From positions 1,426,001-1,490,000 of the forward strand of contig NZ_CP132911.1 of NCBI RefSeq assembly GCF_036320485.1: 64,000 bases of DNA, read 5' to 3'. Shown here piece after piece: positions 882 to 6,473 of this stretch; position 1 is the stretch's first letter, and the number at the start of each line of letters is the position of its first letter. A program made the position numbers and the translations under genes. Source of the DNA: Dyella sp. A6. Lineage in GTDB: Bacteria; Pseudomonadota; Gammaproteobacteria; Xanthomonadales; Rhodanobacteraceae. The notes under the pieces were generated by a model that ran no database searches, was not told the DNA's origin, and saw nothing but the letters and a program-made list of their open reading frames with translations.

Positions 882-2650
882 GCGCTGATGGTGTGTGCCA
901 GATTGCTCTGCAGCATCGTGCCGCGCAGGGCTCACCGAAGAACTGGCCGCACGATGTGCACCCGGTGCTGCAGCGGGTTTATGCCGCTCGTGGCGTGCTG
1001 AACCCCATCGACGCCGAGCACCGGTTGCAGCGACTGCTTCCGCCGGACACGCTGGGCGGTCTGGCAACGGCGGTCGAACTGCTTGCCGAGGCGATCCGGC
1101 TGGATCATTCGATCGTGATTGCCGGCGATTACGACTGCGACGGCGCCACGGGCGCGGCGGTGGCCGTGCGTGGCCTGCGCATGCTGGGCGCGCGACGGGT
1201 GGCCTATGCGATTCCCAATCGCTTCGTGCACGGTTACGGCCTGACGCCTGAGCTGGTCGCCTCGCTGCAGCCGGCACCCGACCTGATCGTCACCGTCGAC
1301 AACGGCGTGGCCAGCGTGGCGGGCGTGGCGGCGGCGAAGGCGCGGGGTATCCGGGTCATCGTCACCGACCATCACTTGCCCGGTGAGCAGTTGCCTGCCG
1401 CCGATGCGCTGGTGAATCCGAACCTGGCCGGCGATGGCTTTCCGAGCAAGGCGCTGGCCGGCGTGGGGGTGATGTTCTACCTGCTGCTGGCGCTGCGGGC
1501 GAAGCTGTACCCGGGTGGCTCCGCGGATCGCAGCGATCGGCCGCAGCAAGGCCGGCCCGATCTTTCCACCTTGCTCGACCTGGTCGCGCTGGGCACCGTG
1601 GCCGACCTGGTGCCGTTGGACTTCAACAACCGCGTGCTGGTGGCGGCAGGCCTGCGTCGTATTCGCGCGGGGCGTGCCTGCGCCGGGGTGACGGCGCTGG
1701 TCGAGGCGGGCAAGCGCAGCCTGGCGACCCTGTGTGCCAGCGATCTCGGCTTCGTGGTCGGGCCGCGGCTCAATGCAGCGGGGCGGCTGGAGGACATGCG
1801 GCTGGGCGTGGAGTGCCTGCTCACGGATGACCCGGTCCAGGCCCGTCGCCATGCCGCGCAGCTGAGCACGATCAACCAGGAGCGGCGCGATCTGCAGGCG
1901 GCGATGGTGGCCGAGGCGGAATCGATGGTGGCTGGAACCACCTCTACCGATGCGGTCGGGGTGGCCTTGTACGAGCCTGCCTGGCACGCCGGGGTGGTGG
2001 GGCTGGTGGCCTCGAAACTGAAAGAGCGGCTGCATCGGCCGGTGGTGGCCTTCGCACCGGCCGGTCCGGACGAGGCGGGAGGCCCGTCGACGGATGCGGC
2101 CATGCTGAGGGGCTCCGGTCGATCGATCGCCGGGTTCCACCTGCGCGATGCCCTGGCCGCGGTGGATGCGCGGCATCCGGGTCTGATCGAACGTTTCGGC
2201 GGTCATGCGATGGCGGCCGGTCTGAGCCTGAAGGCTACCGACTTCGAGCGCTTTGCGGCTGCCTTCGACGCCGTGGCGCGCGAGTGGATCGCGCCGGAGC
2301 GTCTGCAGGCGGTGCTGAATACCGACGGTGCCTTGCCCGTCGATGGCTTCACCCTGGAGCTGGCCCGCCAGCTGCGCGATGCCGGTCCGTGGGGGCAGGC
2401 GTTTCCCGAGCCCGTGTTCGACAACACCTTCGAATGCGTCAGCTGGAAACTGATGGGCGAGAACCATCTGCGTCTGCAACTGCGCGACCCGCGCAGCGGG
2501 TCCGTGCATGAGGCAGTGATGTTCAACGCCTACCGTGGCGAGGCACCGCCCGCCCGCATGCATGCGGCCTACGAACTGACGATCAACGACTGGCAGGGGC
2601 GCGAGAGCGTGCGCCTGCTGCTGCGTCACATGGAACCTGCATCCGGTTGA
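878..2650 (+). CDS. recJ: Single-stranded-DNA-specific exonuclease RecJ
   Basis: RecJ degrades single-stranded DNA 5' to 3' in recombination and mismatch repair. I place the start at GTG 878: it overlaps the rpfE stop by four bases, has AGGA seven bases upstream, and gives 590 residues, close to the family norm of about 570. The frame stays open further upstream, but that part is only the shadow of rpfE. DHH-family metal-binding motifs are clear: D-Y-D-C-D-G from residue 84, V-D-N-G near residue 140, and D-H-H at 164-166. A DHHA1-type region follows, with G-G-H-A-M-A-A-G near residue 440, then the C-terminal nucleic-acid-binding domain. It is part of an rpfE-recJ transcription unit. No terminator is obvious after the stop. 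Confidence 0.96.
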   Translation: MSADGVCQIALQHRAAQGSPKNWPHDVHPVLQRVYAARGVLNPIDAEHRLQRLLPPDTLGGLATAVELLAEAIRLDHSIVIAGDYDCDGATGAAVAVRGLRMLGARRVAYAIPNRFVHGYGLTPELVASLQPAPDLIVTVDNGVASVAGVAAAKARGIRVIVTDHHLPGEQLPAADALVNPNLAGDGFPSKALAGVGVMFYLLLALRAKLYPGGSADRSDRPQQGRPDLSTLLDLVALGTVADLVPLDFNNRVLVAAGLRRIRAGRACAGVTALVEAGKRSLATLCASDLGFVVGPRLNAAGRLEDMRLGVECLLTDDPVQARRHAAQLSTINQERRDLQAAMVAEAESMVAGTTSTDAVGVALYEPAWHAGVVGLVASKLKERLHRPVVAFAPAGPDEAGGPSTDAAMLRGSGRSIAGFHLRDALAAVDARHPGLIERFGGHAMAAGLSLKATDFERFAAAFDAVAREWIAPERLQAVLNTDGALPVDGFTLELARQLRDAGPWGQAFPEPVFDNTFECVSWKLMGENHLRLQLRDPRSGSVHEAVMFNAYRGEAPPARMHAAYELTINDWQGRESVRLLLRHMEPASG

Positions 2651-2828
2651 ATGGAGCGCTTGTAGCTGCCGTGGCTGTGCGCCGGATTGCCGGCAAGCGA
2701 TGCCGTTCCGCGGGTAGGCCATGGATGAGCTGTAGCGAACCTTCGATGAGAGTAGCCGCACAACCATGTCTCGGCGACATGGCCGCGCGCTATGCTCTGC
2801 ATCAGTCAATCGATGTCGGGAGAACATC

Positions 2829-3212
2829 ATGATCGAGCAGATCGAAGGATTGCCGGCCGGCACACTGGGTTTCCGTGCACGCGGCCAGGTCACATCACAG
2901 GACTATGAGCGCGTGATCGTGCCCGATGTCGAGGCCGCATTCGCGCTCAACCGCAAGCTGCGTCTGCTGTATCACGTAGGTGACGATTTCACCGGCTTCG
3001 ACCCCGGGGCGATGTGGGATGACGCCAAGCTCGGGTTCCGGCATTTCACCGGCTGGGACCGGGTGGCGCTGGTCACCGACCTGCCGTGGCTGCGCATGAC
3101 CGCCACTGCCATGGGTTTCGCCGTTCCCGCCGAGTTCCGCCTGTTCGGCAATGCCGAGCTGGATGCGGCGAAGCGCTGGATTGCCGAGCCGAGGCCGGTC
3201 GATGGCGATTAG
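2829..3212 (+). CDS. SpoIIAA-like (STAS/DUF3478) family small protein
   Basis: This 127-residue cytoplasmic protein starts at ATG 2829 behind a GGGAG ribosome site. An upstream ATG at 2766 is in frame but has poor context and adds unrelated residues. The sequence matches the SpoIIAA-like family: an N-terminal strand with M-I-E-Q-I-E-G-L-P, a central region with Y-E-R-V-I-V-P-D-V-E, then W-D-D-A-K-L-G and a W-D-R-V-A-L-V-T-D strand. Members adopt a STAS-like fold. Their function is generally unknown; some have been linked to membrane or lipid association. It sits between recJ and the asnB leader, and a promoter for the leader begins just after its stop. It is probably unrelated functionally to either neighbour. 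Confidence 0.75.
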   Translation: MIEQIEGLPAGTLGFRARGQVTSQDYERVIVPDVEAAFALNRKLRLLYHVGDDFTGFDPGAMWDDAKLGFRHFTGWDRVALVTDLPWLRMTATAMGFAVPAEFRLFGNAELDAAKRWIAEPRPVDGD

Positions 3213-3225
3213 AACCAAAAGCCAC

Positions 3226-3254
3226 TTGCACTGCGGCGCCGGCTCTGCTTAAGT
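3226..3254 (+). promoter_or_regulatory. Candidate sigma-70 promoter of the asnB leader
   Basis: TTGCAC at 3226-3231 and TTAAGT at 3249-3254 are separated by exactly 17 bases. Both are imperfect matches to the -35 and -10 consensus. Transcription would start around 3260-3263, at or next to the leader-peptide ATG at 3263. That would explain why no Shine-Dalgarno sequence is visible before that ATG. This is an inference from sequence only. Confidence 0.4.
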
Positions 3255-3262
3255 CGACCCCC

Positions 3263-3382
3263 ATGAAGACCTTTTCCGCCATGACTGCACCTGCCAGCGC
3301 GCCTGCCGCGCGGTGCGTCATGACGGCTGCCAATAATAATCGTGCGAACAATAACGCCCATCGTTGGCGGGCCCGCGCGTAG
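3263..3382 (+). CDS. AsnB leader peptide, asparagine-codon-rich (attenuation control)
   Basis: This is a 39-codon reading frame from ATG 3263 to TAG 3380-3382. Codons 24-26 and 29-31 are all Asn (AAT AAT AAT at 3332-3340; AAC AAT AAC at 3347-3355), separated only by Arg-Ala. The frame lies directly upstream of asparagine synthetase asnB and is followed 24 bases later by a strong intrinsic terminator. Six Asn codons in eight positions, in front of the gene that makes Asn, is the hallmark of a leader peptide for ribosome-mediated attenuation, as known for his, thr, leu and trp operons. No good ribosome site precedes the ATG. Internal ATGs at 3281 and 3320 would give shorter versions that keep all Asn codons. 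Confidence 0.8.
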   Translation: MKTFSAMTAPASAPAARCVMTAANNNRANNNAHRWRARA

Positions 3383-3421
3383 CTGCAAGAAACACCACCA
3401 GACACGCGACCGAGGCCCGCC
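3366..3421 (+). promoter_or_regulatory. Candidate antiterminator of the asnB leader
   Basis: GGCGGGCC at 3366-3373 is perfectly complementary to GGCCCGCC at 3414-3421, which contains half of the terminator's left arm. The two structures are therefore mutually exclusive. The proximal segment spans leader codons 35-37, roughly 11-40 bases beyond the Asn codons. A ribosome waiting for Asn-tRNA would leave it free, and a ribosome at the stop codon (3380) would cover it. A weak competing hairpin, CGCC 3355-3358 with GGCG 3366-3369, is also possible. Confidence 0.6.
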
Positions 3422-3448
3422 CAGTGCGGGCCTCGGTCGTTTTGCGTT
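3407..3448 (+). terminator. Rho-independent attenuator terminator before asnB
   Basis: The arms at 3407-3420 and 3426-3439 form a perfect 14-bp GC-rich stem with a five-base loop, followed by TTTTGCGTT. It lies between the Asn-rich leader peptide and asnB, 105 bases before the asnB start. In this position it acts on asnB itself rather than ending an upstream gene. Confidence 0.85.
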
Positions 3449-3552
3449 CCTGATTCGCGCACCTGATCCGTCCGCGTCCGGTTGCGCCAAAGCAAACCCG
3501 GCCTCGATGGCCGCATACAACTCAATACCGATACAACCGAGGAGCCTTGCCC

Positions 3553-5229
3553 ATGTGTTCGATTTTCGGAATGTTCGATCTGCAGCCGGGAGACGACCTG
3601 ACTGCCCTGCGCCGACAGGCGCTGGAATTGTCGCAGCGTCAGCGTCACCGTGGTCCCGACTGGAGCGGCGTTTTCGTCGATGCCGGCGTGATCCTGGTGC
3701 ACGAACGGCTGGCCATCGTCGATCCGGCCAGTGGTGCGCAGCCACTGCGTTCGCGCGACGGCGCACTGGCGCTGGCGGTGAACGGCGAGATCTACAACCA
3801 CCGCGAACTGCGTGCGGCCAGCGACTACGACTTCACCACCGGCTCGGACTGCGAAGTGATCAATGCGCTGTATCGTGATCTCGGCGGCGATGCCTTTGTG
3901 AAAGAAGGCGTGGGCAAGCTCAACGGCATCTTCGCCTTTGCGCTGTGGGACGGCGCCAGCCAGCGCTACGTGATCGCCCGCGACCCGATCGGTGTCTGTC
4001 CGCTGTACTGGGGCCACGACGGGGAAGGGCGCCTGTGCGTGGCGTCGGAAATGAAGGCACTGGTCGGCGTGTGCAACGACGTCACCACTTTTCCGCCCGG
4101 CCATGTCTACGACAGTGCCACCGGCGAGCTGGCACGCTATTACAGCAAGGCATGGCGCGACTACGGCGCGACCGTGGGCAAGGGGCCGGAGGGGTTGCGC
4201 GAGGCGTTCGAGCAGGCAGTCCACCGGCAGCTGATGACCGACGTGCCTTATGGCGTACTGCTTTCCGGCGGACTGGATTCCTCGCTGGTCGCGGCATGCG
4301 CCGCACGCTTCGCGCGTGAACGGGTCGAGGACGATGACCGTTCGGAAGCCTGGTGGCCGCGTCTGCATTCGTTCGCGATCGGCCTGGAAGGCTCGCCCGA
4401 TCTGGCCGCAGCGCAGGTCGCCGCCGACGCCCTGGGCACGGTGCACCATGGTTTCGTCTACACCTTCTGGGAAGGCCTGGACGCGGTGCCCGAGGTGATC
4501 CGCCACCTGGAAACCTATGACGTCACCACCATCCGTGCAGCTACGCCGATGTACCTGCTGGCGCGCCGGATCAAGGCGATGGGCGTGAAGATGGTGCTGT
4601 CCGGCGAGGGCTCGGACGAACTGTTCGGCGGCTACCTTTACTTCCACAAGGCGCCGTCGGCCGAAGCCTTCCACGAGGAGACCGTGCGCAAGCTAGACGC
4701 CCTGCACAGCTACGACTGCCTGCGCGCCAACAAGGCGATGATGGCCTGGGGGGTGGAGGCGCGCGTGCCGTTCCTGGACCTGGAATTCATCGACGTGGCG
4801 ATGGGCCTCGACGCCGCGCACAAGATGGCGGGCGGCGGCAAGATCGAGAAGCACGTGCTGCGCGCAGCATTCGACGGCGCACTGCCTAAGGAGATCCTGT
4901 GGCGGCAGAAGGAACAGTTCTCCGATGGCGTCGGCTACGGCTGGATCGACGGCCTGAAGGCGCATGCCGAGCAGGAGGTCAGCGACCGCGAGTTCGCCGC
5001 GGCGGCCTCGCGTTTCCCGCTCAACACGCCGGCGACCAAGGAAGCCTACTTCTACCGCCGCATCTTCGAGCAGTTCTACCCCGGCGAGGCCTGTGCGGCG
5101 ACCGTGCCGGGTGGCAAGTCGATCGCCTGTTCCTCGCCCGCCGCGCTGGCCTGGGACCCGGCGTTCGCGACGATGGCCGACCCGTCCGGCCGGGCGGTGC
5201 GTGGGGTGCATGCGCAGGCACTGGACTGA
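3553..5229 (+). CDS. asnB: Asparagine synthetase B, glutamine-hydrolysing
   Basis: AsnB makes asparagine from aspartate, ATP and glutamine. I choose ATG 3553 because it places the catalytic nucleophile at Cys2 (M-C-S-I-F-G), as class II glutamine amidotransferases require, and because GAGGAG lies eight bases upstream. A TTG two codons earlier would bury the cysteine. The 558-residue length fits the E. coli AsnB type (554). The N-terminal amidotransferase domain spans about 1-200, with R-H-R-G-P-D near residue 30. The synthetase domain follows, with the pyrophosphate-binding loop S-G-G-L-D-S-S at 238-244 and S-G-E-G-S-D-E-L-F-G-G-Y near residue 350. The gene sits alone between recJ and prfB behind its own Asn-codon attenuator, so expression probably responds to charging of Asn-tRNA. 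Confidence 0.96.
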   Translation: MCSIFGMFDLQPGDDLTALRRQALELSQRQRHRGPDWSGVFVDAGVILVHERLAIVDPASGAQPLRSRDGALALAVNGEIYNHRELRAASDYDFTTGSDCEVINALYRDLGGDAFVKEGVGKLNGIFAFALWDGASQRYVIARDPIGVCPLYWGHDGEGRLCVASEMKALVGVCNDVTTFPPGHVYDSATGELARYYSKAWRDYGATVGKGPEGLREAFEQAVHRQLMTDVPYGVLLSGGLDSSLVAACAARFARERVEDDDRSEAWWPRLHSFAIGLEGSPDLAAAQVAADALGTVHHGFVYTFWEGLDAVPEVIRHLETYDVTTIRAATPMYLLARRIKAMGVKMVLSGEGSDELFGGYLYFHKAPSAEAFHEETVRKLDALHSYDCLRANKAMMAWGVEARVPFLDLEFIDVAMGLDAAHKMAGGGKIEKHVLRAAFDGALPKEILWRQKEQFSDGVGYGWIDGLKAHAEQEVSDREFAAAASRFPLNTPATKEAYFYRRIFEQFYPGEACAATVPGGKSIACSSPAALAWDPAFATMADPSGRAVRGVHAQALD

Positions 5230-5347
5230 CGCCATCGCGCCGTCGGCAGTGTGCCGTCGGCGCAGTGGCCCCGAGCCTGCCTTGGCGGGCGCTGGGCCAT
5301 GCTAAGCTAACCGGCTGCAATCGCATTCAACCTGACGAAGCCATTCC

Positions 5348-6473
5348 ATGATCGAGACCAATCCGATCCTTGCGCAGATCGCGGACCTTACGGACCGCGT
5401 CGAGTCGCTTAGGGGGTATCTTTGACTACGCCACCAAGCGTGAGCGTCTGGAAGAAGTAAGCCGCGAGCTGGAAAGCCCGACGGTTTGGGACGACCCTGC
5501 GCGTGCGCAGGAACTGGGCCGCGAGCGTGCGCGCCTGGACGTTGTCGTGACCGGTATCGACGAGCTCAGTGCGGGCCTGTCCGATGCCAGGGAGCTGCTG
5601 GAGATGGCTGCAGCCGACGGCGACGAGGAAACCGTGCAGTCGATCGTCGGTGACGTCGAGGGCCTCGAGGCGCGTGTCGGCAAGCTGGAATTCCAGCGCA
5701 TGTTCTCGGGCCAGATGGACGCGTCCAACGCCTTCGTCGACATCCAGGCCGGCGCCGGCGGCACCGAGGCCCAGGACTGGGCGGAAATGCTGCTGCGCAT
5801 GTACCTGCGCTGGGCCGAATCGCGTGGCTGGAAGACCGAGCTGCTGGAAGTTTCCGGTGGCGAAGTGGCGGGCATCAAGTCGGCCACCTTCCGGGTCGAG
5901 GGCGACTACGCCTACGGCTGGCTGAAGACCGAGATCGGCGTGCACCGGCTGGTGCGCAAGAGCCCGTTCGACTCGGACAACCGCCGCCACACCAGCTTCA
6001 CGTCGGTATTCGTGTCGCCGGAAGTGGACGACGACATCGACATCGACATCAATCCGGCCGACCTGAAGACCGACGTGTATCGCTCGTCCGGTGCCGGTGG
6101 TCAGCACGTCAACAAGACCGAGTCCGCGGTGCGTATCACCCATGTGCCTTCGGGCGTGGTGGTGGCGTGCCAGACCGAGCGATCGCAGCATGCCAACCGC
6201 GATCGCGCGATGAAGATGCTGAAGGCCAAGCTGTACGAGATCGAGGTGCAGAAGCGCAACGCCGAGAAGGATGCGCTGGAAGCGACCAAGTCCGATATCG
6301 GCTGGGGCAGCCAGATCCGCAACTATGTGCTGGACCAGAGCCGCATCAAGGACCTGCGCACCGGCATCGAGCGTTCGGATACGCAGAAAGTGCTGGACGG
6401 CGACCTGGACGAGTTCGTCGAGGGAAGCCTGAAGGCGGGCCTGGATGCGGGTGCCAAGCGTGTCGACGCCTGA
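5348..6473 (+). CDS. prfB: Peptide chain release factor 2, made by programmed +1 frameshift
   Basis: RF2 releases peptides at UGA and UAA codons. Translation starts at ATG 5348 and reads 25 codons to CTT-TGA (TGA at 5423-5425). It then slips +1 so that GAC 5424 is codon 26, giving 374 residues. The slip site has the classic elements: the internal Shine-Dalgarno-like AGGGGG at 5411-5416, then TAT CTT TGA C. After the slip, S-P-F at 205-207 (stop-codon recognition) and G-G-Q at 250-252 (peptidyl-tRNA hydrolysis) fall exactly at the E. coli RF2 positions, which confirms the reading. RF2 scarcity favours the frameshift, so the gene autoregulates. It lies upstream of lysS, as in many bacteria, but with a small secreted-protein gene between them. 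Confidence 0.97.
5408..5426 (+). promoter_or_regulatory. prfB programmed +1 frameshift site
   Basis: CTT AGG GGG TAT CTT TGA C is read in the initial frame. The AGGGGG pairs with the 16S rRNA tail and pushes the ribosome forward, while the weak in-frame UGA (itself an RF2 codon) gives time for tRNA-Leu to slip from CTT to TTT. Spacing and sequence match the classic E. coli prfB site. Confidence 0.97.

Follow-up and report, generated by a model that had tools for sequence, protein, structure and literature searches.

The question raised by the locus described here is how the asparagine synthetase gene asnB of Dyella sp. A6 is controlled. The gene lies in a stretch of 64,000 nucleotides (contig NZ_CP132911.1, positions 1,426,001 to 1,490,000), which in its full length is called the window and to which all positions below refer, and it is preceded by a short open reading frame (ORF) rich in asparagine codons and by a terminator hairpin. 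The leader and the terminator very probably turn asnB on solely under asparagine shortage. As judged from the sequence, the region would attenuate asnB transcription by a ribosome-mediated mechanism specific for asparagine, and the probability of this reading is put at roughly 0.9.

Elements in front of asnB

The elements that the proposed attenuator consists of, all on the forward (+) strand, are the following.

3226..3231, +, TTGCAC, -35-like element in the putative promoter of the leader, recognized by the position of TTGC relative to the leader ATG
3249..3254, +, -10-like element TTAAGT, with TG at 3246-3247; 17 nucleotides (nt) after the -35-like element and 8 nt before the ATG
3263..3382, +, leader peptide ORF of 39 codons, with homologous leaders in relatives; predicted to be leaderless or nearly so
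3332..3340, +, first putative Asn control codons, AAT AAT AAT (codons 24-26)
3347..3355, +, second putative Asn control codons, AAC AAT AAC (codons 29-31)
3366..3373, +, strand 2, predicted 5' half of the antiterminator, within the final leader codons; complement of 3414-3421
3406..3420, +, strand 3, 5' arm of the terminator; its 3414-3421 could alternatively pair with strand 2
3426..3440, +, strand 4, 3' arm of the terminator, with a short T tract behind it (T at 3440-3443)
3553..5229, +, asnB, glutamine-dependent asparagine synthetase (Pfam Asn_synthase 2.2e-88, GATase_7 5.4e-37), the gene proposed to be controlled

The leader ORF is translated to MKTFSAMTAPASAPAARCVMTAANNNRANNNAHRWRARA*, where the pattern NNN-RA-NNN places six Asn codons within eight. 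Over 8 base pairs, strand 2 (GGCGGGCC) and 3414-3421 (GGCCCGCC) are exact reverse complements of each other. An intrinsic terminator is present between the leader and asnB; its stem, 3406-3440, has 15 pairs around the loop CCAGT, of which 14 (3407-3439) are Watson-Crick and the outer one is G-U. When the segment 3332-3448 was folded, only 2 of 200 shuffles were better (z -2.8). The start of asnB at 3553 is preceded by GAGGAG at 3539-3544. An earlier note on the letters of the window had listed the 39-codon ORF with Asn at codons 24-26 and 29-31, a perfect 14-base-pair terminator stem, the exact complementarity of 3366-3373 to 3414-3421 and the asnB start, and all of these are found as described, the T tract being short. 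The description of the region as running from recJ to asnB had to be corrected: recJ (557-2650) is followed by a SpoIIAA-like gene (2766-3212), which is the direct upstream neighbour, so the leader does not lie directly behind recJ.

In the proposed mechanism, transcription would begin at, or at most about two bases from, the leader ATG, and a ribosome would trail the RNA polymerase along the leader. A ribosome covers some 15 nt in front of its P-site. Waiting on the final Asn codon (3353-3355), it should consequently reach to about 3365 and leave 3366-3373 free, while at the stop codon it should cover 3366-3373. When charged Asn-tRNA is scarce the ribosome would stall on the Asn codons at 3332-3355 with its front edge near 3365; the free 3366-3373 could then pair with 3414-3421, no terminator would form, and asnB would be read. 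With plentiful Asn-tRNA the ribosome would reach the stop codon at 3380-3382 and cover 3366-3373, the terminator 3406-3440 would form, and transcription would end before asnB. The transcription start, the stalling of the ribosome, the RNA switch inside cells and the altered readthrough are inferred.

Conservation, spacing and copy number of the leader

The near-relative set comprises the best 80 of 485 loci from a scan of genome contigs with AsnB. Seventy of these are named Rhodanobacter, Dyella, Frateuria, Fulvimonas or Rhodanobacteraceae, and the remaining 10 are loosely named metagenome bins; from the names, the family denoted f1 appears to be Rhodanobacteraceae. An ORF with at least four Asn in nine residues was found within 700 nt before asnB at 77 of the 80 loci, and the DNA available upstream is just 60, 123 and 250 nt long in the three that miss it (L050, L055 and L077). 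The usual pattern in the 77 is NNN or NNNN plus a further NN or NNN a few residues away, and all 77 leaders come with a stem that pairs an arm containing GGCCCGC with one containing GCGGGCC.

AsnB was found at E of at most 1e-100 in 216 of 299 genomes of the order, and 40 of these order-wide loci were hand-picked to cover a wide range of families and genera. At 36 of the 40 there is a leader with three or more Asn in nine, and none was found before L151-L154, all four with an AsnB of 70-72% identity and belonging to family f10. Among the best f1 matches of the order-wide set (L086-L114, where several species overlap the near-relative set) the leader is present at 29 of 29. The 114 loci used below consist of the window, the 77 and the 36, while L050, L055, L077 and L151-L154 were dropped since they have no leader; 91 of the 114 belong to f1, 22 to f2 and one to f3.

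The distant set holds 30 loci, 29 of which have an AsnB of 59-69% identity. L160 (AsnB 76%) carries the leader. Among the loci with distant AsnB (L161-L189) a leader was found solely in L163 (family f8, AsnB 67%), where it differs from the others (MFAIYNTINTTNNRLLRSAGSF) and has its own terminator; none was found in 27 of the 29, and L173, for which no orientation was obtained, was left aside. In a class-wide set of 369 genomes, partly from the same order, no comparable leader was found outside the order, where just two genomes have such an AsnB; one ORF with three Asn in nine, about 290-470 nt upstream in L194 from another order, was not counted. In these sequences the putative attenuator is conserved before asnB in Rhodanobacteraceae carrying this AsnB and in f2, and f3 and f8 each have it in one genus or more. 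The earlier note expected both the Asn codons and the hairpin in relatives if the proposal was right, and both are kept in the homologous loci.

That the Asn codons exceed chance is seen when ATG-started ORFs of 15-70 codons in the 400 nt upstream are compared with 2280 dinucleotide shuffles: at least five Asn in nine occur at 95 of the 114 loci and in none of the shuffles. Ala clusters are likewise above the shuffles (39/114 vs 69/2280), Arg clusters are found at 9 loci vs in 136 shuffles, and clusters of any other amino acid occur at no more than one locus each. The Ala clusters could be taken to favour a leader peptide that acts via its amino-acid sequence, as an arrest peptide or in trans, with a signal other than Asn-tRNA charging. 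Non-Asn parts of the leader (RWRARA, RPMRVCD) are also conserved within groups, and a trans-acting leader peptide, peTrpL, is reported in the accessible part of PMC7298713. However, the Asn runs persist across families with differing tails, strand 2 lies in the very tail codons that are conserved, and the enriched amino acid is the exact product of the controlled gene. A peptide acting through its sequence is the least probable of the explanations considered, and there is very little chance that it is correct.

The spacing of the elements is rigid, as expected if the ribosome stalls at Asn. At 100 of the 114 loci the distance from the last letter of the final run of two or more Asn to the last base of the stop codon is 27 or 30 nt, and the stem lies 19-33 nt behind the stop codon. 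Upstream, TTGC lies 35-37 nt before the in-frame leader ATG at 104 loci, and 31-37 nt before it at 106 (vs 102 of 2280 shuffles), the eight misses all being f1. The fuller pattern TTGC..T..A.T..ATG, which was derived from the same loci, is found at 81 of them and in one of the 2280 shuffles; it occurs in 80 of 91 f1 loci and in the sole f3 locus, and in 0 of 22 f2 loci. The gap from the -10-like hexamer to the ATG is 6-7 nt in 76 of the 81 and 8 nt in the window. L163 is unlike the other loci in having, as seen by eye, TTGACA 54 nt before the ATG. A plain sigma-70 scan of 2900-3700 found no promoter; TTGCAC matches the first hexamer of the scan at three of six positions, which is below the threshold. 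The fixed distance of TTGC from the ATG suggests that the leader mRNA begins at or close to the start codon, and the leader is probably translated from a leaderless or near-leaderless mRNA.

The number of copies per genome was assessed with R1, a covariance model built from the 30-locus alignment described below, which includes some of the genomes' own sequences. Matches of at least 51 bits, one each, were found in 50 of 73 family genomes, and the 40 of these for which the place of asnB is known all lie less than 200 nt upstream of the gene. Among the matches listed, the best further one has 36 bits, and the weak ones are mostly the terminator end alone; an ORF with at least four Asn in nine was found in none of the 20 full-length weak matches listed (28-36 bits), and three Asn in one. 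Twenty-three family genomes have no strong match, and 19 of them were searched for AsnB: five have a distant AsnB of 63-67%, three a partial weak one, and 11 nothing at 1e-30. A distant AsnB of 65-67% is found in G067, G230, G277 and G279, also without a strong match.

The genome of the window contains two more AsnB-like genes, at G000:C1:1562470-1563549 and 3606646-3607770, which appear as matching pieces (31-43% identity) within open frames that are 759 and 684 amino acids long. No strong R1 match is found at either among the matches listed.

Two loci have additional structures near the leader. In L148 the leader hairpin ends 283 nt before asnB, and the stretch between contains two strong hairpins of the CCCCCG...CGGGGG type, to which many microRNA models match and which look as if they were inserted repeats. 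In L129 a long imperfect palindrome of the GCGCCCTGGGGCGC type, probably an intergenic repeat, lies upstream of the leader, about 262-323 nt before asnB.

Pairing, covariation and competing explanations

Thirty of the 114 loci, hand-picked for spread, were aligned to study covariation. The structure was taken from the window, which favours the unslid register, and the shuffles ignore relatedness. In the terminator 91.4% of the cells are paired, nine of the 13 pairs have changed on both sides, and the covariation score is reached in 0 of 500 shuffles. In the antiterminator 92.9% of the cells are paired, vs 32.5-51.9% after sliding by one to three columns. Double changes in five antiterminator cells, as well as its covariation score, are matched by 0 of 500 shuffles.

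The leader strand and the terminator arm also change together. The clearest single cases are L139 and L148, where a T replaces C in the terminator arm alongside an A for G in the leader (CCTGC/GCAGG), the leader codon at the changed letter being Gln where relatives have Arg; in the terminator of L139 a U-G pair is kept at the changed position. The stems of the 22 f2 loci differ from the f1 form. Eleven of them have CCCGCATC in the 5' arm, and the exact complement GATGCGGG is found at the leader end in nine of the 11, L128 and L129 having the arm without the complement. The arm CCCGCGC is found in five f2 loci, with CGCGGG in the leader of four, and CCGCAC or CTGCAC in six, where the leader has GCGGG in three, GCAGG in L139 and L148, and GGGGCC in L134.

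These linked letters bear on another explanation of the hairpin, namely that it is a constitutive terminator of the SpoIIAA-like gene, while the Asn ORF is there by chance or encodes a separate small protein and the asnB promoter lies downstream. The terminator does sit between two genes on the same strand, GGCCCGC-type stems are found behind ordinary genes in these genomes as well, as weak R1 matches, and an internal asnB promoter is possible, the simple scan having found no promoter at all between 2900 and 3700. It would still have to be explained why the leader starts at a fixed distance from the promoter-like TTGC, why the Asn codons, the stop distance and the complement of the arm are kept together, and why leader and arm letters differ jointly in L139 and L148. 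A constitutive terminator or a chance ORF was rejected on the conservation, the spacing and the linked letters, and this explanation is considered highly improbable.

Several observations weigh against the attenuator. The T tract after the window terminator is short, TTTT followed by GCGTT. The number of antiterminator pairs changed on both sides (three of eight) was matched by 19 of 500 shuffles, and because the core GCGGGCC/GGCCCGC is nearly fixed the covariation of the antiterminator rests on few double changes. When arms are swapped within f1, the leaders pair equally well with foreign arms (-17.1 kcal/mol) and with those of their own locus (-17.3), and f2 leaders given f1 arms reach -15.1 and -15.7 kcal/mol vs -15.8 and -14.5 with their own; in the swap between families pairing was lost solely for f1 leaders with GCATC-type arms (-9.7 kcal/mol). 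The leader segment is among the best 5% of its own shuffles at 86 of the 114 loci, not at all of them, and the pairing is weak, short or interrupted in L057, L115-L120, L121-L125, L127 and L148. Strand 2 is paired upstream with at least five of its eight bases in 76 of 114 folds, a possible 1:2 pause hairpin, and the 1:2 folding energy is barely better than that of shuffled codon order (mean z -0.43).

The weak antiterminator of some genera would also fit a related possibility, in which attenuation is real and the signal is a general slowdown of translation, Rho or an RNA-binding protein, the Asn codons only setting the basal position of the ribosome. The share of AAT among the Asn codons, about threefold higher in the leaders (239/577) than in asnB (78/562; window and the 77 loci), points in the same direction, as frequent AAT could slow translation generally. 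The codons are, on the other hand, enriched for the product of the controlled gene, the rigid spacing fits stalling at Asn, and the region 2500-5500 of the window matches no known RNA family up to E = 1. Attenuation by such another signal is regarded as very unlikely.

The attenuator reading proposed in the earlier note is supported by the conservation, the spacing and the covariation taken together. That note also looked to compensatory changes. In the terminator they are seen, as given above. For the alternative pairing, the leader strand tracks the terminator arm between families and in L139 and L148, and the antiterminator is weaker in L115-L120, L121-L125 and L127.

Asparagine supply and known attenuators

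The genome of the window has AsnRS, and no match to GatB was found in it. Among the 299 genomes of the order this AsnB is present in 216 and a GatB match in 58, with both in none and neither in 25; the P value of this exclusion is 2e-42, computed ignoring relatedness. AsnRS was found in 95 of 101 sampled genomes, and in 27 of the 27 sampled genomes whose AsnB has 75% identity or more. Since the GatB genomes in the sample mostly have AsnRS too, AsnRS alone fails to separate the groups. With AsnRS present and GatB absent, tRNA-Asn should be charged with free asparagine, and the leader would then report the product of the gene that it controls. The presence of AsnRS and the absence of GatB are observed, as are the parts of the attenuator and their conservation, spacing and covariation. 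In two genomes, G079 and G092, a distant AsnB is accompanied by neither AsnRS at 1e-100 nor a GatB match; these bins may be incomplete.

The arrangement resembles the his, thr, leu, ilv, phe and trp attenuators of proteobacteria in having an ORF with codons for the product, an intrinsic terminator, a competing antiterminator and a spacing set by the ribosome. It differs from them (in Rfam, His_leader, Leu_leader, Thr_leader and Trp_leader) in having asparagine as its amino acid and asnB as its gene. Asn-specific T-boxes of Firmicutes report the charging of Asn-tRNA and control asparagine genes, and T-boxes bind tRNA directly, translation of a leader not being needed. The asnB leader region is unlike these in having no T-box match; a T-box or known riboswitch was rejected, as the Rfam families, T-box included, gave no match in 2500-5500.

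In 12 relatives the Rfam scan gave 34 matches, all below the gathering scores. Twenty-two of these fall on a palindrome in L148 or its flank, mostly with microRNA families, and several others on the attenuator hairpins of L120, L137, L143 and L163. The attenuator of L163 scores 30.6 bits with Trp_leader (41 needed, E 0.0085), 25.2 with Thr_leader and 22.6 with Leu_leader, and the further sub-threshold scores are Thr_leader in L137 (24.4) and L120 (24.1) and Leu_leader in L143 (23.9). Such scores would fit a likeness in architecture, not membership of these families.

Related systems have been described. In the accessible part of PMC7298713 the RNA of the Sinorhizobium meliloti trpL attenuator begins at the ATG of the leader ORF, as is predicted for asnB; the 5' end is known in that system, which differs in having tryptophan codons and trpE(G). 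The upstream ORF uORFC-8-2 before cysS in Rhodobacterales shares the idea of stalling, as stalling at the codons of one amino acid is proposed to permit read-through, and it has cysteine codons, a tRNA synthetase gene and an alphaproteobacterial order (PMC8632094, as far as accessible). The ilvB uORF motif of Corynebacterium likewise has an upstream ORF, an antiterminator sequence and a stem for termination ahead of a biosynthetic gene, and differs from the asnB leader in its Ile, Leu and Val codons and in belonging to a Gram-positive genus (PMC11109978, as far as accessible).

No asparagine attenuator was found among the open papers listed in the searches, some older surveys and supplements aside. 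The earlier note named no established one, and this held in those papers and in the Rfam scans. The word asparagine is absent from the accessible main text of PMC2965389, PMC1262725, PMC8632094, PMC11109978, PMC4833913 and PMC6685928, and 'asn' occurs nowhere in that of PMC7298713 and once in that of PMC2965389, within the reference list. PMC6685928, where 'Asn codons' and 'leader peptide' occur together, was set aside as, in its accessible part, it is about misincorporation and ermC and not about asparagine attenuation.

Downstream of asnB the window contains a release-factor gene (PCRF and RF-1 domains, 5348-6473), whose apparent ATG start at 5348 is in a frame that differs from that of the main ORF when compared by eye, which is what the programmed frameshift usual in prfB would lead one to expect.

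The kind of mechanism is known; what appears to be new is the asparagine specificity, together with the RNA family. It is likely that this is the first asparagine-specific ribosome-mediated attenuator, conserved as a single copy per genome ahead of asnB in Rhodanobacteraceae with this AsnB and in f2, and present in one genus or more of both f3 and f8, with a leaderless mRNA in nearly all of them and with the last leader codons serving as antiterminator, and that it is found where Asn-tRNA is made by AsnB and AsnRS without GatB, charging thus being a measure of free asparagine. R1 can be used as a covariance model for annotation. If the proposal is true, asparagine joins the short list of amino acids under leader-peptide attenuation, and the control of asnB across a large bacterial group is accounted for. 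It would also provide a testable link between the route to Asn-tRNA, by AsnB and AsnRS or by GatCAB, and the regulator that evolves.

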